A program made the position numbers and the translations under genes. This document shows, piece after piece, positions 8,762 through 63,741 of a stretch of 64,000 nucleotides of DNA (position 1 is the first letter of the stretch; each line of letters opens with the position of its first letter). Under the pieces are notes generated by a model. It made no database searches. It worked only from the letters and a program-made list of their open reading frames with translations, and was not told the DNA's origin. Source of the stretch: Ischnura elegans (lineage: Eukaryota; Arthropoda; Insecta; Odonata; Coenagrionidae). The stretch covers positions 74,995,992-75,059,991 of the forward strand of contig NC_060253.1 in the NCBI RefSeq assembly GCF_921293095.1, in the 5' to 3' direction.

Positions 8762-9568
8762 TATACCATCTTAAGCTCCTTTTTTTTTAGCATATCTCGA
8801 TCAAGCACAATTTGAAGATCAAATTAAGCTATTTCCTTCCGAATGGCTTACATTTTTTACCTCGAACGATTTTAAAATAAGCAGTGATTGGTTCTTGTCC
8901 TACGCATATGCTCATATTGCTCTCAAGTTGACAACAGAGACTGCTACCAAAAGTTCATAAATAAGAACGGAAAACCCTTCGGCTAGAAGCCCAAAGTTGT
9001 ACCCATTATGCAAACACGTCCCGGGGTTAATATTTAGTATTTATCATGCATTTAGTATTTATTTATAGAAAACCAATGTGTTAGTTGTAGTATGCGATAT
9101 AATATTTCCTGGTATTAAACAAGGTCAAGAAAAGGAGAAAAAAAATAGTAGTAGTATGTAGCAAAAGAGAAGAAGTGAAGACTAACTTTAAAATAGGGAA
9201 GCAAAACCTGATAGATGAGGATGAATTTTGCTATTTGGGAAGCAGGAAAACAAGCGATGGGAGAAGCAAGAAATAAATTATCAGCTGAATAGCCCAGACA
9301 AAGAGAGCATCCACCAAAATCAGGGTAAATCAGCAGCGGGATATTTAACCATTGTAGTAAGGAAACAATATTTATCAGGATTTATATTTTGAGTACATAG
9401 GCGGATCTAGGGGGGAGCCCGGGGGCACGTGCCCCCCCACCCCCCAGACCCTCGAAACTATACAAGATTTTTAATATGGTCCCATTATGATTGCGTTCCT
9501 TTTGTATTACGAGGTATCCTTGTGCCCCCCAGAACAAAATCCTGGATACGGCCTTGCTTGTGCCCCCC
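8762..9568 (+). repeat. Segment copied at 24545-25290
   Basis: From TACCATCTTAAGC to CTTGTGCCCCC this segment matches 24545-25290 almost base for base. This copy holds about 64 extra bases between two ATAGTAGTAGTATG-like repeats near 9088 and 9155, which looks like a microhomology deletion in the other copy. It covers unrecognised sequence, the start of a LINE 3' fragment, and most of a G-rich MITE, so the copying happened after the MITE had inserted. The 24.5-kb copy has target repeats, which makes this the likely donor or a sibling of it. Confidence 0.85.
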
Positions 9569-11957: not shown

Positions 11958-12351
11958 ATGATGGCGAAAACTTGCTCGGGAGCGAAGAGGAAGCGTGGTG
12001 TATATTGCGCTGCATTTTGGTGCAACAATTTTTTTGGGTGCCGGACAGATGAACCGGTATCTTTATTTTATTTTCCAAAAGATCGTAATAGGTAAGTGGA
12101 ATCTATGAAGTTGAACGTATCAATGAATTTATTGTTTCCTTATGCACACTCTCACGGCATGCTTTTTTCAAGGGCGGTTGAGTGGCTGAAGTTTGCTCTC
12201 CGGGAAGATTTGCTGGAGAAAGACATAAAAAATATGAGGCTCTGTAGCGACCATTTCGTTGAGAGAGATTATAAATGCAAGACGCCACGTGCACTATTGC
12301 GTGAAGATGCAGTTCCCAGCCGTTACGAGTGGAAACCAGGAGAGCGTTGTG
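11958..12351 (+). pseudogene. THAP zinc-finger domain, two exons of a P-like transposase or derived gene
   Basis: Exon 1 (11958-12091) starts at ATGATG and ends at a good donor (AG|GTAAGT). Exon 2 (12173-12351) follows a TTTTTTCAAG acceptor and ends at G|GTGAGT; joining keeps the frame. The roughly 105-residue product has the full THAP C2CH pattern: C17, C22, then W49, then C69 and H72 in LCSDHF, and the AVPS block at 91-94. SLFYFPKD precedes the junction. THAP domains bind DNA and form the N-terminus of P-element and THAP9 transposases. The next transposase-like piece (13144 on) is in a different splice phase and the catalytic middle is absent, so the full gene is probably broken. A short domesticated THAP protein is possible but untested. 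Confidence 0.75.
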
Positions 12352-12544
12352 GTGAGTACCTAATTATAATTTTGGTAGTGCACATTTATATGTAAATGCA
12401 TTTAAGTAACGGGAAATGACCGATTTCTTAATTCTATGGATTTCCTCGTGGTCACGCTTTGAAGTTAGAAGGACATACTCGGGCGAAGATGTGGCTTTGT
12501 TAATCCTATCTAATCAGGTTCCCACCTTTGTATTCGCCTACGAG

Positions 12545-13689: not shown

Positions 13690-14115
13690 GTTGTATTGGT
13701 TAAGTATTATTCATGCCGATACATATTTTCATTTGCTTGGGCCAACCCATGGTTGGTACGATTTTATCTAGTTCATGTTAATTGCTATGTTTGGACCACA
13801 CTCGTATTGGTTAATTTTTATTCGTGCTGATAAATATTTTCATTTGCTTGGGCCCTCCCCTGGTTGGTTAGATTTTATCTTGGTCATGTTAATGGCTATG
13901 TTTGGACCACACATGTATTGGTTAATTTTTATTCGTGCTGATAAATATTTTCATTTTCTTGGGCCACCCCCTGGTTGATACAATTTTATCTTGGCCATGT
14001 CAATTGATATGTTTGGACCACACATGCATTGGTTAATTTTTATTCGTGCTGATATATATATTTTCATTTGCTTCGGCCAACCCATGGTTGAAACGAGTTT
14101 ACTCTTGTTAATAGT
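13690..14115 (+). repeat. 111-bp tandem repeat, about four copies
   Basis: TTGGACCACA occurs at 13791, 13902 and 14013, a period of 111 bp. The unit includes GTATTGGTTAATTTTTATTC, GATAAATATTTTCATTT and a GGGCCA..CCC..TGGTTG block. The apparent open frames across it (for example 13775-13978) come from the repeat, not from a gene. Confidence 0.85.
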
Positions 14116-15418
14116 AATTGCTATGGTATGTTTTTATTTTTGTAATATGCTGTGCCTTGGACCACCCATTTGTTGCATAACTCAAATTGTGAATCCATTG
14201 GTGTTTATGTTAAATATTTGTTCAGAATGTTATATTTTTTACATTTAATTTTCATGTTTGTCTATATGGGCTGGTTTGCATTGTAAAGACTTACTCTGAC
14301 GGTGACTTCAATGATGTTTTTGTTTCAATAAACATCTATTGCCGATTATAATTATTTCATTTTCCTCCACCATGCATCATGGTAGGGGCGTGTACTTTCG
14401 ACTGAATATACTCTTGTAGGCAGTCTCCTCCTAGTCTTGGTTCTTATTTGTCCATGGAATAGGTTATGTATCACTATTTTCCTATCTACCACCATTTTTT
14501 CCCCTTAGACATCATTGGTGATATTTCTGGTATTTCTGACCGGTGCTTCATTTTTCCCTCTATTAGTATGCATTTAATGTCTCATGTTTTTATCCCAAGT
14601 TATTTTAGAATAATAATGGCATATTTTAAATATGTCAAATAAGGAGAGGCATTATTTATTGTTGTTGTCTAATATAATTGCCTAGACAAATTAAGCCCAT
14701 TTGAGGCAGAGCCAAAGACTTAAAACCATTGAGTACACAGATTTCATTTCAACAGATCGAGATCATAAATAACTTTGTAATTATTTTGATGCCTTGGTGG
14801 TCCATATCTGGTAAAATATCACAACTGGAAGTTTTTGAGTACAAAGCCATTTTGAAATTGGCGCCGTTGAGGGAGAATTGGCCACCAGAGTGCAGCACTG
14901 TAAATTTATACCCATTAGCCTTAAGGGAGCTGCGCTTCTTCTCCTCCTTCTTCCATAGAATCAGTATATGAATGGCGCCAGTCTTCCACTGACAAATTTA
15001 CGCGCAACAGATTAGCGAGCCTTATCGCCTCCCTCTCTTTCTTTATCTCGTGTGTTTTTTTTTCCTATCAATGACTAATTTTTCCCGAAATATTGTCGCC
15101 AGACGAGAGGTGTACAAAGTTCCGAGGTGGAGAGACGTAGTTCATATTCCATTGATGCTATTTTCACACTTGCGACAGATAAAACCTCTCCCTATACTTC
15201 TGCCTACCTGCGCTCAGTCACTCAAAAAACTGATGATATCGGTAACCCTAAAAATAGCATTGCGGACTTAGATGGCGATGAGGATCGACAAATATATTAT
15301 TTGCAATAGAAAAAAGTAATTGAAGCATTTCTAAATTGTAAGCTTTCAAAAATTCTTCCCGAAAAAAGGGGGTTCAGGCATTTACGATAGAATTATAATA
15401 CGATATAATGTAACGTAA
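14116..15418. other. No gene recognised
   Basis: Contains short open frames (14729-14971, 15050-15271) with no recognisable domain. 15280-15342 repeats 10205-10262 at near identity over about 55 bases (ATATATTAT..TGCAATAGAAAAAAGTAA core). No RNA gene seen. Confidence 0.45.
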
Positions 15419-16129
15419 TATATGTAAGTCGTCTTCGCCGACGGTAAAGGGGTTCGGGGGAAACAAAGCTGGGAACAAGTCCAAACTCTCTCACACAAGC
15501 AACTTCCTTTATTCAGTCCCAAGCCATACACCTTGTTTCGCTGCACAACACCAACTGCCTCTCCTAGCGGCCACCAGCCCTGTCCAGTAGGGAGGATCGG
15601 AAAAATCGATTTTTTTCAAATCCATCTGGCCCAATGAAAAAAAGTTGTGGGACCGATCAAAAATAAGGCCTGAAAAATTTGAGACCTCTAGGTGAACCCC
15701 TGACCCTCGCTCAAATGCAATTTAGGGGGGGAAGGTTGAAATTCGAAAAATATAGTATTTTATGGTCATTTCCTATAGATTTTGCCAAGTTACTGCCCTT
15801 CTACTGCAAAAATTTCGTGCATTTTGACGTATCTGCCACCGTTTAGCCACAAAATGCCTAATTTGAGTCCGCGCCCGCGAAGAAAATATTCCAACGCCCA
15901 CGCAGCGTCGCGGATACAAGAGCCGCAGGCCGATCCCCTCCCCTCCCCGCTCGCTTCTACCCCTCCCACGCCTCCAATACAGCAAAATTCATCCCGCGTA
16001 TGCTGCTAGGAGGTCGTTTATCTTTGGTAATATAAATCGGAAGATGGTAGAAGGTAATAAAGGAAGCTTAGTGAGACGACTTGTCCCTTATTAGGCGCCT
16101 CGTCGGGGTTAAACAAATCGATGTTACCA

Positions 16130-17728
16130 ACTTTTAGAGAAGTGATGAAATATTTTTAGATCCGAGAACGCAGGAAAGGAGCCTACGGTTTATGAAAAGG
16201 CCTCTCGAGTGGCCATAAAGGTGTGCGAACTATGGTGACGCTTCCCTTCCATTATGTGTGTGACTAAATGGATTTAGCGGTACAACAGGAAGTACTAAAA
16301 GTTACGGAAAATGCGAATTGGCCAAAAGTAGGGTTTTTGCTAAAGAACAAACCTGAAGCACTTTTGAAAGAACATTTAAAATTATGCGATATTTTTGCGT
16401 GTAAATGCAAGAAGGAGCATAATGTTCCCCCCAATCAAGAAGTATGTTGAGAGACTAGCGGACGAAACTAAAGATGATGACTGCTGGATTGAGTCCTAAA
16501 GAAACTCGACGACTGAGGAAAAAAAAGAGAATCGTCGGAGAGTGTTAAGTCAACATCGTCAATTCTTGTATGGGAAAATAGTATCAAAATTTTTCTTCAT
16601 CAATTCATCCGAAGAAAATTAAACTGAAGATAAATCATCCGATTTTTATCTCTACGTTCCTCATCAAATAAAAATTCAGGACTAAACTCAAACTGGAACT
16701 TCTGCGCGGAAAATGCGATAGAGGTATATGCAAGAACCAAGAAACAGCAATGATCGTCCCCGCAACTTTAGTTGACGCAAAAATCATAACTTCGTAAGAA
16801 ACATCCAAGGTAGTTTGCAAGAATTACTTACGTAGACAGAAAAAGATGCTAATTATTGTGAATACGAAAAGAGAGGTATCAAAGGGTGTCATCAAAGGGC
16901 TACATTTTTATGGAGTGAAACACTATACTTTTGTCTGATGAAAAAAGGCAAGAGCACTTATCAATCCAAGTTTAGAGGGGAATGTGTGATGTTAGTTGAA
17001 GAAACAGGGTCCCACTTTTGGGTTTGCGTCCCCCGTCGGAGGATTAGCAAAAGTTATAAAATCTGCGATTCTCAATTCCTTTCCGAGTGAAAATTAGATA
17101 CACAATAATAAAAAGGATTTGAATGCGATGGTGAATACCGCCCAAAAAGGAGGCATCATCCCTATGCTACAAGCATAATTCCAACATCCCTTGCTATGCG
17201 AGTAAACTCTTCTCGGGATTCCCACCGGGTTAATTTTTCCAAAACGGCAAACGTTTCAAGCTCCGACTCGGGGCTCATCATCAGGGATAAATTTCGTTGA
17301 ATCCCTAGAGGAGTTTACCCACATTATTCGCCGGGAAAGCATCAAATCATATTTCATCCCTCACAGAGGTCTATTTGCTAATTGCACTAAGTTGACCTAG
17401 ATTTGCGGCATAAACATTGGGAGGGCAATCTAAGGACCGAATTTGCGTTGTTGCAAGTATGCGTTTGGCGGCCGATCCGATATTTTTTAAAGTGCTGGAT
17501 TTTAATATCAACTTTAAGGACTACTCGCTGATGACATATTGGAGAGAGACCACAGTACCTCCGGCTACATCTGACCTTAGTGCTGTGGATTTTCAAAAAT
17601 CTATTGATGAACTTTCAAATTTGAAGTTAAATATTTCTTTTTATTATAGATACGGACGTGAGATTCGTGAAGAAGTTCACCAAAACTTTGTTGACAACAG
17701 CGAAAGACGAGGAATGACACTGATGTAA
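16130..17728 (+). pseudogene. Decayed transposon-associated protein, left-arm copy
   Basis: Fragments in order: MLPTFREVMKYF near 16131, then 16268-16450, which contains LKLCDIFACKCKKEHNVP, then many stops, then 17417-17728, which ends with FVDNSERRGMTLM. From memory these resemble the start, the C-D-I-x-A-C-K-C block and the tail of a widespread uncharacterised transposon-associated family in insects; that match is unverified. At least eight stops lie between the fragments. It is not functional. Confidence 0.5.
17245..17285 (-). other. Ribozyme-like motif, copy B (left arm)
   Basis: Mirror copy of 18776-18817: on the minus strand CCTGATGATGAG, a hairpin with CCG pairing CGG and GAGC pairing GCTT, then GAAACGTTTGCCG. 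Because the arms are inverted, one of the two copies is in sense orientation whichever strand is transcribed. Confidence 0.45.
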
Positions 17729-17937
17729 AAAATACAGATTGGAAAGCAGGTAATTGAAAAATTCTTTCGTGATTGTTCCTCCACAGACGATACTGAAAAA
17801 TTAAATATTTAGACTAACGAAGTAAGACGCACTTGGTGTGAATTTTGGTGCATTTGGCGCGTGGGAGAGGCTTGAGGGGAGGGGGACGCGAGCGGCTTTC
17901 GTCCAAAATCCATTTAATCACATCTGTCGGAGAAAGC

Positions 17938-18123
17938 TTAGTGAGACGACTTGTCCCTTATTAGGCGCCTCGTCGGGGTTAAACAAATCGATGTTACCAA
18001 CTTTTAGAGAAGTGATGAAATATTTTTATATCCGAGAACGCAGGAAAGGAGCCTACGGTTTATGAAAAGGCCTCTCGAGTGGCCATAAAGGTGTGCGAAC
18101 TTCGGATATGCGCTCCAATTTCG
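17938..18123 (+). repeat. Spacer of the palindrome, with a third copy of a 167-bp arm block
   Basis: 17934-18100 repeats 16064-16230 with a single difference noted (TTTTTATATCC instead of TTTTTAGATCC); the inverted copy is in the right arm near 19831-19997. Only about 23 bases (18101-18123) are unique. The junctions therefore carry a piece of arm sequence in direct orientation to the left arm, as expected from a template-switch or break-repair origin of the palindrome. The open reading here keeps Y where the arm copy has a stop in MKYFYIRERR. Confidence 0.85.
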
Positions 18124-18332
18124 GCTTTCTCCGACAGATGTGATTAAATGGATTTTGGACGAAAGCCGCTCGCGTCCCCCTCCCCTCAAGCCTCTCCCAC
18201 GCGCCAAATGCACCAAAATTCACACCAAGTGCGTCTTACTTCGTTAGTCTAAATATTTAATTTTTCAGTATCGTCTGTGGAGGAACAATCACGAAAGAAT
18301 TTTTCAATTACCTGCTTTCCAATCTGTATTTT

Positions 18333-19960
18333 TTACATCAGTGTCATTCCTCGTCTTTCGCTGTTGTCAACAAAGTTTTGGTGAACTTCTTCACGAATCT
18401 CACGTCCGTATCTATAATAAAAAGAAATATTTAACTTCAAATTTGAAAGTTCATCAATAGATTTTTGAAAATCCACAGCACTAAGGTCAGATGTAGCCGG
18501 AGGTACTGTGGTCTCTCTCCAATATGTCATCAGCGAGTAGTCCTTAAAGTTGATATTAAAATCCAGCACTTTAAAAAATATCGGATCGGCCGCCAAACGC
18601 ATACTTGCAACAACGCAAATTCGGTCCTTAGATTGCCCTCCCAATGTTTATGCCGCAAATCTAGGTCAACTTAGTGCAATTAGCAAATAGACCTCTGTGA
18701 GGGATGAAATATGATTTGATGCTTTCCCGGCGAATAATGTGGGTAAACTCCTCTAGGGATTCAACGAAATTTATCCCTGATGATGAGCCCCGAGTCGGAG
18801 CTTGAAACGTTTGCCGTTTTGGAAAAATTAACCCGGTGGGAATCCCGAGAAGAGTTTACTCGCATAGCAAGGGATGTTGGAATTATGCTTGTAGCATAGG
18901 GATGATGCCTCCTTTTTGGGCGGTATTCACCATCGCATTCAAATCCTTTTTATTATTGTGTATCTAATTTTCACTCGGAAAGGAATTGAGAATCGCAGAT
19001 TTTATAACTTTTGCTAATCCTCCGACGGGGGACGCAAACCCAAAAGTGGGACCCTGTTTCTTCAACTAACATCACACATTCCCCTCTAAACTTGGATTGA
19101 TAAGTGCTCTTGCCTTTTTTCATCAGACAAAAGTATAGTGTTTCACTCCATAAAAATGTAGCCCTTTGATGACACCCTTTGATACCTCTCTTTTCGTATT
19201 CACAATAATTAGCATCTTTTTCTGTCTACGTAAGTAATTCTTGCAAACTACCTTGGATGTTTCTTACGAAGTTATGATTTTTGCGTCAACTAAAGTTGCG
19301 GGGACGATCATTGCTGTTTCTTGGTTCTTGCATATACCTCTATCGCATTTTCCGCGCAGAAGTTCCAGTTTGAGTTTAGTCCTGAATTTTTATTTGATGA
19401 GGAACGTAGAGATAAAAATCGGATGATTTATCTTCAGTTTAATTTTCTTCGGATGAATTGATGAAGAAAAATTTTGATACTATTTTCCCATACAAGAATT
19501 GACGATGTTGACTTAACACTCTCCGACGATTCTCTTTTTTTTCCTCAGTCGTCGAGTTTCTTTAGGACTCAATCCAGCAGTCATCATCTTTAGTTTCGTC
19601 CGCTAGTCTCTCAACATACTTCTTGATTGGGGGGAACATTATGCTCCTTCTTGCATTTACACGCAAAAATATCGCATAATTTTAAATGTTCTTTCAAAAG
19701 TGCTTCAGGTTTGTTCTTTAGCAAAAACCCTACTTTTGGCCAATTCGCATTTTCCGTAACTTTTAGTACTTCCTGTTGTACCGCTAAATCCATTTAGTCA
19801 CACACATAATGGAAGGGAAGCGTCACCATAGTTCGCACACCTTTATGGCCACTCGAGAGGCCTTTTCATAAACCGTAGGCTCCTTTCCTGTGTTCTCGGA
19901 TCTAAAAATATTTCATCACTTCTCTAAAAGTTGGTAACATCGATTTGTTTAACCCCGACG
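18333..19960 (-). pseudogene. Decayed transposon-associated protein, right-arm copy
   Basis: Minus-strand mirror of the left-arm remnant: 18333-18644 and 19611-19793 translate to exactly the same peptides as 17417-17728 and 16268-16450. The same stops are present, so decay predates the palindrome or was homogenised by it. Confidence 0.5.
18776..18817 (+). other. Ribozyme-like motif, copy B (right arm)
   Basis: CCTGATGATGAG (18776-18787), hairpin loop near 18793, then TTGAAACGTTTGCCG. Flanking bases also pair: GGGTAAACTCCTC upstream (near 18740) against GAAGAGTTTACTC downstream (near 18850), giving an outer stem around the core. This outer pairing is what a folded catalytic or protein-binding RNA would need, but it could also be a small palindrome. 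Confidence 0.45.
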
Positions 19961-20802
19961 AGGCGCCTAATAAGGGACAAGTCGTCTCACTAAGCTTCCT
20001 TTATTACCTTCTACCATCTTCCGATTTATATTACCAAAGATAAACGACCTCCTAGCAGCATACGCGGGATGAATTTTGCTGTATTGGAGGCGTGGGAGGG
20101 GTAGAAGCGAGCGGGGAGGGGAGGGGATCGGCCTGCGGCTCTTGTATCCGCGACGCTGCGTGGGCGTTGGAATATTTTCTTCGCGGGCGCGGACTCAAAT
20201 TAGGCATTTTGTGGCTAAACGGTGGCAGATACGTCAAAATGCACGACATTTTTGCAGTAGAAGGGCAGTAACTTGGCAAAATCTATAGGAAATGACCATA
20301 AAATACTATATTTTTCGAATTTCAACCTTCCCCCCCTAAATTGCATTTGAGCGAGGGTCAGGGGTTCACCTAGAGGTCTCAAATTTTTCAGGCCTTATTT
20401 TTGATCGGTCCCACAACTTTTTTTCATTGGGCCAGATGGATTTGAAAAAAAATCGATTTTTCCGATCCGCCCTACTGTCCAGCCCCACGCCCCTGGGGCC
20501 ACCGAGAGAGATCATTTCTCAAGCGACTCTCTCGATGACAGCAGGAACGTGCTTAATGGCTGGGTCTCAAAGGAAGTCCGTTCGAGGCGACCCTCGTCGT
20601 CTCACAGCTTATAATAATCTAAATGAAACCGCGCTTACATATAGCATAATATAATAATACATAGTAGGGGTGTATTTTTTTTAGATATTTTGAAATGGTA
20701 CCCACCGAAGGTCAGTTATTGTTTTGCTCCAAATTAAACCGTTAATTTATGCAGCCAGCTCTGATTTCATGTTGAAAATCACAATTGTAGACGTCGAACC
20801 TG

Positions 20803-24523: not shown

Positions 24524-25311
24524 TGATCGCGTGATTCAGGGTATACCATCTTAAGCTCCTTTTTTTTTAGCATATCTCGATCAAGCACAATTTGAAGATC
24601 AAATTAAGCTATTTCCTTCCGAATGGCTTACATTTTTTACCTCGAACGATTTTAAAATAAGCAGTGATTGGCTCTTGTCCTACGCATAAGCCCATATTGC
24701 TCTCAAGTTGACAACAGAGACTGCTACCAAAATTTCATAAATAAGAACGGAAAACCCTTCGGCTAGAAGCCCAAAGTTGTACCCATTATGCAAACACGTC
24801 CCGAGGTTAATATTTAGTATTTATCATGCATTTAATATTTATTTATAGAAAACCAATATGTTAGTAGTAGTATGTAGCAAAAGAGAAGAAGTGAAGACTA
24901 ACTTTAAAATAGGGAAACAAAACCTGATAGATGAGGATGAATTTTGCTATTTGGGAAGCAGGAAAACAAGCGATGGGAGAAGCAAGAAATAAATTATCAG
25001 CTGAATAGCCCAGACAAAGAGAGCATCCACCAAAATCAGGGTAAATCAGCAGCGGGATATTTAACCATTGTAGTAAGGAAACAATATTTATCAGGATTTA
25101 TATTTTGAGTACATAGGCGGATCTAGGTGGGAGCCCGGGGGCACGTGCCCCCCCCACCCCCGGACCCTCGAAACTATACAAGATTTTTAATATGGTCCCA
25201 TTATGATTGCGTTCCTTTTGTATTACGAGGTATCCTTGTGCCCCCCAGAACAAAATCCTGGATACGGCCTTGCTTGTGCCCCCGCGTTGATGATCGCGTG
25301 ATTGAGGGTAT
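24524..25311 (+). mobile_element. Relocated copy of 8762-9568 with about 22-bp target repeats
   Basis: The unit 24545-25290 is nearly identical to 8762-9568 but is flanked by the direct repeats TGATCGCGTGATTCAGGG and TGATCGCGTGATTGAGGG (24524-24544 and 25291-25311, about 21 of 22 bases shared). It begins and ends inside other elements: the start is not a transposon end and the stop is within a G-rich MITE. It lacks about 64 bases present in the other copy and has a few extra bases (GCGTT) at its right junction. Long target repeats suggest staggered-break repair or LINE machinery copying a chimeric RNA. Confidence 0.8.
25115..25281 (-). mobile_element. Truncated G-rich hAT-like MITE within the relocated segment
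   Basis: CATAGGCGGATCTAGG to CTTGTGCCCCC, same orientation and same neighbours as 9396-9568. Its far end is cut exactly where the relocated segment stops, so it moved as a passenger. Confidence 0.75.
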
Positions 25312-34581: not shown

Positions 34582-34778
34582 AAAGGAGACTTCGTTGATT
34601 TCCACTAATTTATTTTATCCGTACGACATGTTTCGAACCATAGAGGTCATTATCAAGTGACTTGATAATGATCTCTATGACTTATCTCTATGATCTAAGT
34701 GACTTGATAATGACCTCAATGATTCGAAACATGTCGTACGGACAAAATAAATTAGTGGAAATCAACGAAGTCTCCTTT
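34582..34778. repeat. 77-bp-arm hairpin carrying ribozyme-like motif copies C
   Basis: The arms 34582-34658 and 34702-34778 are reverse complements with only about three mismatches; the 43-base loop contains a further partial copy of ACTTGATAATGA. Each arm, read toward the outside, gives TTGATAATGACC, a short loop, GGTTCGAAACATG and GTCGTACGG, a weaker form of the CTGATGA-stem-GAAAC motif. It sits about 330 bp past the MADF stop codon. Such paired copies are common in Penelope-like elements and MITEs. Confidence 0.75.
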
Positions 34779-61489: not shown

Positions 61490-62215
61490 GTTAAATGTGG
61501 ATGCGTCAAAAAATTGCTAATAATAGATTCCCCCTTGCTTGTCAGCTCTGATTTTTCATTTTGGTCAATGGTAGAAGTGGTCGGATTGTTTCATTTCAGT
61601 TGATAATGGCCTCAAATGCTTTACTTGCGTGGTTAACATGATTTGCTGGCTCAGTTCAGGAATGCTGCCGTGTATGTGAATGCGTCAAAAAAAAATGCTA
61701 ATAAGAGATTCCATCTTGCTTGTCAGCTCTGATTTTTCGTTTTGATCGATGGTAGAAGTGATCGGATTGTTTCATTTCAGTTGACAATTGCCTCACATAC
61801 TTTACTTGTGTGGTTAATAGTATTTACTGGCTCAGTTACGTATTGCTGCCGTGTATGTGAATGCGTAAAAAGTTGCTAATAACAGATTCCCCCTTGATTG
61901 TCAGCTCTGATTTTTCGTTTTGATCGATGGTAGAAGTGATCGGATTGTTTCATTTCAGTTGACAATTGCCTCACATGCTTGTGTGGTTAATATGATTTAC
62001 TGGCTCGGTTACGTATTGCTGCCGTGTATGTGAATGCGTCAAAAAATTGCTAATAACAGATTCCCCCTTGATTGTCAGCTCTGATATTTCGTTTTGGTCG
62101 ATGGTAGAAGTGGTCGGATTGTTTCATTTCAGTTGGCAAATGCCTCACATGCTTTACTAGTGTGGTTAATGTGATTTACTGGCTCAGTCCCCTATTGCTG
62201 CCGTGCATTTCGTCG
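61490..62215 (+). repeat. 178-bp tandem repeat, four copies
   Basis: ATGCGTCAAAAAATTGC-like starts lie near 61502, 61680, 61860 and 62036, periods of 174-181 bp. Units share AGATTCCCCCTTG, TTGTCAGCTCTGAT, GGTAGAAGTG.TCGGATTG, TTTCATTTCAGTTG and TGCTGCCGTGTATGTGAA. Copies are about 90% alike, so the array is fairly young. It abuts the right inverted end of the P-like element. Confidence 0.9.
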
Positions 62216-63479: not shown

Positions 63480-63741
63480 CAGGGGTGCCGACTTACAAAA
63501 AATACTGGGGGGGCCCAAACCGAGGACCTTGCCCGGGTAAATTTTATAAGTTGTGAAATTTAAGTTTTTTTAAGCATTTTAGAAGATCCATATGATCAAC
63601 ATTAGAACCCTGATCACTCGAATCTCGATATCTGGATACTCCGGGGAAAATTGACTTGCCTGACACATTTTTTCCTCACGTCTGTTACGAATTTTTGGGG
63701 GGGCTCGGGCCCCCTCAGGCCCCATGGAGTTGGCGCCACTG
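63480..63741. mobile_element. hAT-like MITE with perfect target duplication, copy 2
   Basis: Starts CAGGGGTGCCGACTTACAA and ends GTTGGCGCCACTG. TACGACAG is repeated exactly on both sides (63472-63479 and 63742-63749). Interior as at 36282-36542, including GGGGGGGCCCAAACC and GGGCCCCCTCAGGCCCCATG. Non-coding, 262 bp. Confidence 0.9.

Follow-up and report, generated by a model that had tools for sequence, protein, structure and literature searches.

The closest described counterpart of the structure reported here is provided by the recombinant-TIR (2RT) copies of the transposon Galileo in Drosophila mojavensis, for which the passages of the paper used here propose a break in TIR2 that was repaired from TIR1, resulting in the order TIR1-F1-F1-TIR2 (PMC3573991). 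In these copies, internal sequence beside TIR1 was recruited in inverted orientation beside TIR2, and the two TIRs of a copy are 98-100% alike. Galileo belongs to the P superfamily and produces 7-bp duplications, and the longest TIRs given in those passages measure 1,260 and 1,241 bp at 95.2% identity (PMC3573991). The passages used on Mu killer of maize, a member of the Mutator family, name mudrA as its coding target, report silencing and mention a centre that resisted PCR (PMC3440606). The foldback Tetris, in the corresponding part of its description, combines long inverted arms and a short middle with 8-10-bp duplications and no coding capacity (PMC4079207). The origins of fold-back transposons and giant palindromes are usually inferred from such end products.

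The window considered here, a 64,000-nt stretch of the Ischnura elegans genome, contains a near-perfect 4.9-kb palindrome. An exact alignment of its arms (15588-17937 and 18124-20474) yielded 4 differences in 2,351 columns, which confirmed the preliminary description of two inverted arms of about 2350 bp with few differences. These comprise three substitutions (A15593/C, T15814/G and G16170/A) and a 1-bp T indel (15610/20452; right-arm letters are those of the minus strand), and the substitution divergence between the arms is 0.13%. The TAGGG..CCCTA borders given in the same description are correct as to TAGGG at both element ends, but base 6 differs between the ends, being A on the left and C on the right. 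The preliminary description had overlooked that arm positions 474-644 recur a third time, in direct orientation, within the 186-bp centre (17931-18101), together with a spacer of 22 bp. No homology above shuffled sequences was detected between the flanks, direct or inverted (400 bp each side), and no tandem arrays were found within 15588-20474; repeated 11-mers in the arm numbered 2 compared with a shuffle mean of 1.06. TIRs built of internal direct subrepeats, which characterize FB-like elements, were not found in the window arms. The features of the locus are as follows.

15580..15587, no strand: left copy of the target-site duplication CTGTCCAG, fitting the family preference (T at 2, A at 7)
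15588..17937, plus strand: left arm, element 1-2350, probably the new copy that replaced the parent's short-side TIR
15588..15616, plus strand: outer terminal repeat TAGGG(A)GGATCGG..., with a base-6 change absent from the other copies examined
17417..17728, plus strand: at 103 aa the longest relic open frame of the arm, without recognised domain; its mirror image lies at 18333-18644 on the minus strand
17934..17937, plus strand: AAGC microhomology, element 2347-2350 = 477-480, at the junction of left arm and remnant
17938..18101, plus strand: direct piece of the element (481-644), apparently left over from the short-side TIR that the parent first had, ending at the inner edge of the 644-class TIR
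18102..18123, minus strand: 22-bp spacer in the form canonical for the centre of 644-class elements; L003 and L042 carry it unchanged on the opposite strand
18124..20474, minus strand: right arm, element 2350-1, probably the original long side of the parent
20446..20474, minus strand: outer terminal repeat of the putative original long side
20475..20482, no strand: right copy of CTGTCCAG, abutting the right arm

In the 1.72-Gb genome from which the window comes, the arm is part of a large non-autonomous family with 313 counted central-spacer sites (100 of these places were listed, most of them not looked at individually). One genome search scored 40 of 4,684 candidates. The 40 other copies that were examined closely are loci L001-L044 less the window (L001, L002); L005 and L009 form the dimer L031, which entered the count as two units, and L008 is the same locus as L044. 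L046, L047, L051 and L052 were added later and examined in part. Most of the examined copies are 3.0-3.3 kb in size and have 8-bp duplications of the NTGTACAN type, their TIRs measuring about 640 or 890 bp, and TAGGGCGGATCGG represents the ends of family elements. TAGGG was found at both ends of 38 of the 40 other copies, the exceptions L040 and L041 being cut at one end. The 8-bp duplications are exact in 32 of the 40, with T at position 2 in 27 and A at position 7 in 29 of these 32. Divergence from the window arms is 3.1-4.9% in 39 of the 40 copies and 10.6% in the rearranged L043, and the median identity over pairs of other copies is 95.7%.

Duplications of 8 bp of the nTnnnnAn type, with T at position 2 and A at position 7, and terminal repeats of the YARNG type are traits of the hAT superfamily. 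The P superfamily is characterized by a THAP-type transposase, and 8-bp duplications also occur there, so that duplication length does not separate P from hAT. The best explanation of the locus is a single copy from a family of hAT-like DNA transposons that are non-autonomous and have long TIRs. This family shares the nTnnnnAn-type 8-bp duplications and TAGGG ends with hAT non-autonomous elements, but no hAT transposase was found in it (Pfam on stop-free arm pieces; 150 scored matches). TIRs as long as those of this family are unusual among hAT non-autonomous elements.

Several observations indicate that the palindrome was made from a single element. Both arms share 22 substitutions that are absent from the 40 other copies when both TIRs of each copy are counted (23 when the comparison is made with 42 long sides). 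In a tree computed without L043, the two arms group at 100/100 support. This grouping, together with the three substitutions and one indel that separate the arms, argues that one arm was copied from the other. Moreover, the direct central copy carries both private substitutions that fall in its span (603 and 627) in addition to the rare T at 604, and it therefore belongs to the same element as the arms. Its end at 644 and the adjoining 22-bp spacer equal the centres of L003 and L042, match L051 and L052, and, apart from a single changed base in the spacer of each unit, equal those of L031A and L031B, the two units of L031. Judged from these sequences, the centre is a fossil of the parent that retains the edge of the old short-side TIR (164 bp) beside the 22-bp canonical spacer. 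The preliminary description had regarded the arms as recent or as being homogenised. The copying indeed looks recent relative to the divergence of the element (4 arm differences versus 22 shared private substitutions; a stem of 0.013 versus 0.0009 in the tree), and homogenisation between TIRs acts in the family, since 77 of 165 private TIR changes in 35 copies are present in both TIRs of a copy (L040-L044 were left out of these and of the long-side private counts).

From this anatomy we infer, with a probability of roughly three in four, that a broken TIR was repaired in place by strand invasion of the opposite TIR and that copying overshot through the interior. The parent would have been an ordinary 644-class element of about 3.03 kb, lying in reverse on the plus strand with its short-side TIR (1-644), the 22-bp spacer and its long side (2350-1), and inserted at CTGTCCAG. 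A later break in the short-side TIR near 477-481 would have left a flank-side broken end with TIR sequence that may have paired with the matching TIR across the same element, be it on its own chromatid, the sister or the homologue. Copying would then have run inward, past the TIR edge and through the whole interior to 2350, and the copied end would have been joined via AAGC to the leftover inner piece of the old TIR. The outcome would be a 2.35-kb palindrome whose inverted repeat swallowed the whole interior and whose centre fossilised the old TIR edge and spacer.

Some points count against this repair reading. The copying stop at 2350 coincides with the spacer edge, and the reading offers no reason for a stop there. 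Additionally, the remnant has T at 18029 (position 572), whereas G is found in 77 of 79 other TIRs that retain this position; an ancestral origin of this T was rejected on the same count.

Other derivations of single parts of the structure were also considered. Duplication of a truncated monomer, with the outer ends made alike by loss of the right end, was rejected since the family copies represent a normal long-TIR element. An original status of the right TIR's outer 23 bp was likewise rejected, because every one of the 38 other long sides that retain base 6 has C at it; among the intact TIR ends listed for the 40 other copies none has A at base 6, and one other TIR (L030) is listed with a run of eight T like that of the right arm. 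An origin of the 22-bp spacer from the left subterminal region was rejected for want of a match, and template run-off at a shared break was superseded by the recognition of the canonical spacer.

The exact 8-bp CTGTCCAG adjoins both ends of the palindrome and fits the family-type duplication (T at 2, A at 7). It occurs three times in the window versus 0.58 expected, and a chance match of two abutting 8-mers has a probability of about 2e-5. The 8-bp target duplication of the preliminary description is thus real and supports insertion of a TIR transposon. The further claim that the duplication makes the palindrome a mobile fold-back element, formed elsewhere and moved here as a unit, was not borne out, since insertion of an ordinary parent already explains the CTGTCCAG pair, which consequently does not show that the palindrome itself jumped. 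Such a mobile unit is unlikely, even though its ends are intact, its duplication is exact, and extended-TIR forms can multiply, as shown by exact duplications in 8 of the 11 copies of the 886 class. With up to 2 mismatches allowed, the 26-bp junction of left arm and remnant was located once in the 1.72 Gb (control 0), and in-place conversion accounts for the structure. Moreover, among the matches listed for the 1830-2138 frame (148 other places from 150 scored of 1,889 candidates, an incomplete set that misses the second unit of the C19 dimer), no two were seen by eye within 10 kb. A single transposition of the finished palindrome would, for its part, give the same picture as conversion in place.

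Comparable scars are present in two other classes of the family. In the 886 class (11 of the 40 copies), the spacer is followed by 25 bp of inverted 644-620 and then by inverted 886-1, which is the scar topology of the window copy with other endpoints. In L046 and L047 (695 class), the spacer and inverted 2350-2319 lie on the long-side TIR, representing a reverse overshoot. An extended-TIR (2RT-like) structure, with inverted internal sequence inside the opposite TIR, is present in the window (2350), the 886 and the 695 classes.

A dimer of the kind found at C19 (L031), where an 8-bp word lies between and around two inverted elements, might also have served as a precursor. If two elements had inserted back to back, a deletion that removed both inner TIR ends, extending from 2350 in one element to 477-481 in the second, would generate the window order. 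The L031 units are 97.1% identical and other pairs have a median of 95.7%, whereas the window arms are 0.13% apart in substitutions; this route hence needs very strong later homogenisation and is very improbable. Palindromes are prone to assembly chimeras, and the contig might in principle contain a collapsed inverted chimera. This is scarcely credible here, as a plain inverted chimera would mirror the flank too but the flanks differ, the target duplication is of the family type, there are 4 differences between the arms, and a scar like that of 11 other copies lies in the centre.

The arms do not visibly encode a transposase. Stop-free arm pieces gave no Pfam matches, hAT included, and no THAP domain was matched in the short arm pieces searched, which cover part of the arm. 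No frame over 132 aa was present among the 150 scored of 1,889 genome candidates, and the longest frame in the 40 other copies comprises 165 aa. The relic frames show no codon pattern, with variable sites at codon positions 1/2/3 numbering 26/31/24 and 19/21/19 (L040-L044 left out). A PDB search with one relic frame, Rfam on the window at gathering scores, the TIR pattern in viral contigs and a comparison of the arm with phage records gave no matches.

The preliminary description had also expected a transcript to fold into a hairpin, and a very stable fold was predicted for the central 662 nt, the part that was folded. A transcript of both arms would fold into a hairpin whose duplex is for the most part perfect. 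It is conceivable, and compatible with the repair reading, that the palindrome was kept because its putative hairpin RNA yields small RNAs against the family, a role of the kind proposed for Mu killer in maize. Two same-side TIRs with an inverted internal copy correspond to the layout given for Mu killer in the passages used (PMC3440606), the predicted fold is stable, and 76.5% of the 21-mers in the arm have an exact match in one or more of the 40 other copies. The lack of a codon pattern in the relic frames and of any frame over 132 aa among the 150 scored matches speaks against such a role and implies that the silencing target would be the non-autonomous family, and we regard this explanation as quite improbable. 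Distinctly unlikely as well is the wider proposition that repeated TIR-to-TIR repair with overshoot turns long-TIR transposons into fold-backs, with, as the extreme product, a self-made hairpin locus that makes small RNAs against its own family as a counterpart of Mu killer outside plants. On this view, overshoot would have happened separately at least three times in the family, in two directions, and each event would have left a scar that shows its orientation.

Since the family keeps its scars, the old TIR edge, the spacer and the microhomology joint remain legible both in a single recent copy and in a subfamily that has multiplied, and the break-and-recopy model becomes testable by sequence alone across hundreds of copies. 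The locus is also a natural place to ask whether a self-made hairpin silences its own family. In the titles and abstract openings surveyed, no palindrome with such a scar was described, which does not prove its absence from the literature.

Compared with the parts of the published descriptions used here, the window element resembles Tetris-type foldbacks (PMC4079207) in its long inverted arms, short middle, 8-bp duplication and lack of coding capacity, but its arms are without tandem repeats and its junction was found at one locus only. With Mu killer (PMC3440606) it shares two ends derived from the same element end, two inverted partial internal copies and the possibility of hairpin or antisense RNA, whereas no coding target was seen here, although an unfound autonomous partner could match, and the centre is assembled. 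The inverted recruitment of internal sequence and the proposed repair of one TIR from the other are common to Galileo (PMC3573991), which differs in its 7-bp duplications from the exact 8-bp duplications of the window and 32 of the 40 other copies. In contrast to Galileo, the inverted repeat extends here over 2,350 bp at 99.8% identity, the whole interior was consumed and the old TIR edge was kept as a scar. The palindrome is most likely the product of TIR break repair, a process that had been proposed before for other transposons and of which it is a striking example.

The two arms of the palindrome (15588-17937 and 18124-20474) differed by three substitutions and one 1-bp indel over 2,351 aligned columns, and the 8-bp word CTGTCCAG directly adjoined it at both ends as an exact copy, so that the palindrome claimed in the preliminary description is borne out. 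The structured centre of 186 bp had been overlooked there: positions 17931-18101 represent a third, directly oriented copy of arm positions 474-644, which is connected to the left arm via AAGC and separated from the right arm by 22 bp. The flanks, compared over 400 bp per side, showed no relatedness to each other. At position 18029, the remnant of the third copy outside the left arm (17938-18101) contains a T, compared with G in 77 of 79 other terminal inverted repeats (TIRs); this T creates ATATCCGA, the complement of TCGGATAT at 18102-18109, and is perhaps a templated mutation.

A search of the same genome identified the arm as a member of a large transposon family (87 matches from 40 scored of 4,684 candidates), and the central spacer was detected at 313 places with at most three mismatches (control, 0). 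Most of the 40 copies examined were about 3,027 or 3,294 bp in length, with a usual layout of a long side (element positions 1-2350), a short spacer and an inverted short-side TIR beginning at 637-639, 644 or 886. Exact 8-bp target duplications were present in 32 of these copies; 27 of these duplications have T as their second base and 29 have A as their seventh. The family is best called hAT-like, according to traits typical of hAT elements, and an affiliation with the P superfamily is possible as well; a search for a transposase of the family yielded none. Since frames of more than 165 aa were absent from all 40 copies, the relic frame (the longest open frame in the arm, 103 aa; 17417-17728, + strand) gave 150 scored matches that all lacked frames of more than 132 aa, and no codon pattern was found among variable sites, the family looks non-autonomous. 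Three copies (L042, L043 and L044) are rearranged, showing losses from the interior, duplicated ends or insertions, and a further locus carries three near-identical 8-bp words, GTGTACAT, GTGTATAT and GTGTACAT:

L031:854-6926 (C19:94674753-94680825): 6-kb dimer of two family elements, back to back and inverted

Read on the other strand from 20474 to 17938, the window copy is an ordinary element of the class with a TIR edge at 644, comprising the long side, the canonical 22-bp spacer and the inner short-side TIR from 644 down to 481. The AAGC at element positions 480-477 is common to both sides of the joint, and outward of it the remainder of the short TIR is supplanted by a complete long-side copy. 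Substitutions between the arms amounted to 0.13%, compared with 3.1-4.9% between the arms and 39 of the 40 other copies and 10.6% for the rearranged L043. In a tree, the two arms clustered with full support beside copy L003; two copies chosen as closest by the protein of the relic frame (L051 and L052) were not nearer to the arms than other copies (96.4-96.5%). Both arms share 22 substitutions found in no other copy (23 when set against 42 long sides), and the remnant carries both arm-private substitutions within its span, plus a rare T at 604. Thus, left arm, right arm and remnant derive from one element. The arm copying was apparently late, since the tree stem measured 0.013 before and 0.0009 after it; subsequent arm-to-arm conversion could make the copying seem younger than it is, and no absolute age is claimed. 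The palindrome is real, relatively recent and was found at one locus, and it is most likely the product of overshooting TIR repair within a non-autonomous family, the window copy keeping unusually legible scars of its making.

Similar joints were detected in other copies. In 11 of the 40, the spacer is followed by 25 bp of inverted 644-620 and then by inverted 886-1, with about 1 bp of microhomology at the joint by our own reading of the alignment; the old TIR edge persists within a newly lengthened TIR, an arrangement that matches the window copy in topology and differs from it in the endpoints. As eight of these 11 carried exact duplications, an extended-TIR form has multiplied. The reverse arrangement, in which the long-side TIR carries the spacer plus a 32-bp piece of the far interior (inverted 2350-2319), resulting in two inverted spacers about 1,725 bp apart, was found in two copies, the first with the exact duplication CTGGATAG and the second without an exact duplication at the ends used:

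L046:1786-4810: reverse-overshoot copy
L047:1820-4845: reverse-overshoot copy

The spacer positions listed include one more such pair, likewise 1,725 bp apart (C8:23571356/23573081). Among 165 private TIR changes in 35 copies, 77 were shared between the two TIRs of a copy, a pattern that requires conversion from one TIR to the other at some point. The most extreme outcome of this recurrent overshoot process is the window palindrome. An older round of TIR replacement in the family may be traced by a decayed inverted match within each arm (348-404 with 2252-2308), with a local score of 56 compared with at most 44 in 500 shuffles:

15935-15991 with 17839-17895: decayed inverted match, 70-76%
18166-18222 with 20070-20126: its mirror

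The left-arm junction occurs at one place in 1.72 Gb at up to two mismatches, and no relic-frame places within 10 kb of each other were seen by eye among the 148 other places listed, an incomplete set from which the C19 dimer's second unit is absent. With a single junction and no such pairs among the places listed, there is apparently no sign of the palindrome moving as a unit. It possibly moved once as such; most simply, the target duplication is the parent element's own.

The window contains further repeats, among them another young one (the direct copies), and a THAP fragment that is possibly a P-type transposon relic or a host gene exon:

8762-9445 and 24542-25161: direct copies that agree at 98-99% over stretches of 300 bp
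12096-12392, + strand: THAP domain fragment (Pfam PF05485, E 2.9e-07)
13692-14125: tandem array, 111-bp units
34582-34778: MITE-like short inverted repeat, 82-bp arms, 95% complementary, 33-bp loop
36282-36542 and 63480-63741: repeat pair starting CAGGG, 85-88% alike
61495-62205: tandem array, 181-bp units

A transcript of the palindrome, if made, would fold into a duplex whose mismatch-free stretches between the arm differences measure 1,767, 355 and 203 bp; the predicted fold of the central 662 nt reached -507 kcal/mol, compared with a mean of -173 in 20 shuffles. Of the arm 21-mers, 76.5% were present in one or more of the 40 other copies (median per copy, 42%). A silencing role of the window palindrome is a possibility.

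A TIR2 break repaired from TIR1, with the tract entering the interior, is proposed to yield the TIR1-F1-F1-TIR2 structure of Galileo, whose longest reported TIRs are about 1.25 kb and 95.2% identical (PMC3573991), and Mu killer of maize is described as two same-end TIRs with an inverted partial transposase copy (PMC3440606). Classic Foldback elements possess arm subrepeats, whereas the window copy does not. Since the duplications are 8 bp in the window copy and its family but 7 bp in Galileo, and no coding target was seen, the window copy is assigned to neither system. The likeness to Galileo lies in the origin and that to Mu killer in the layout.
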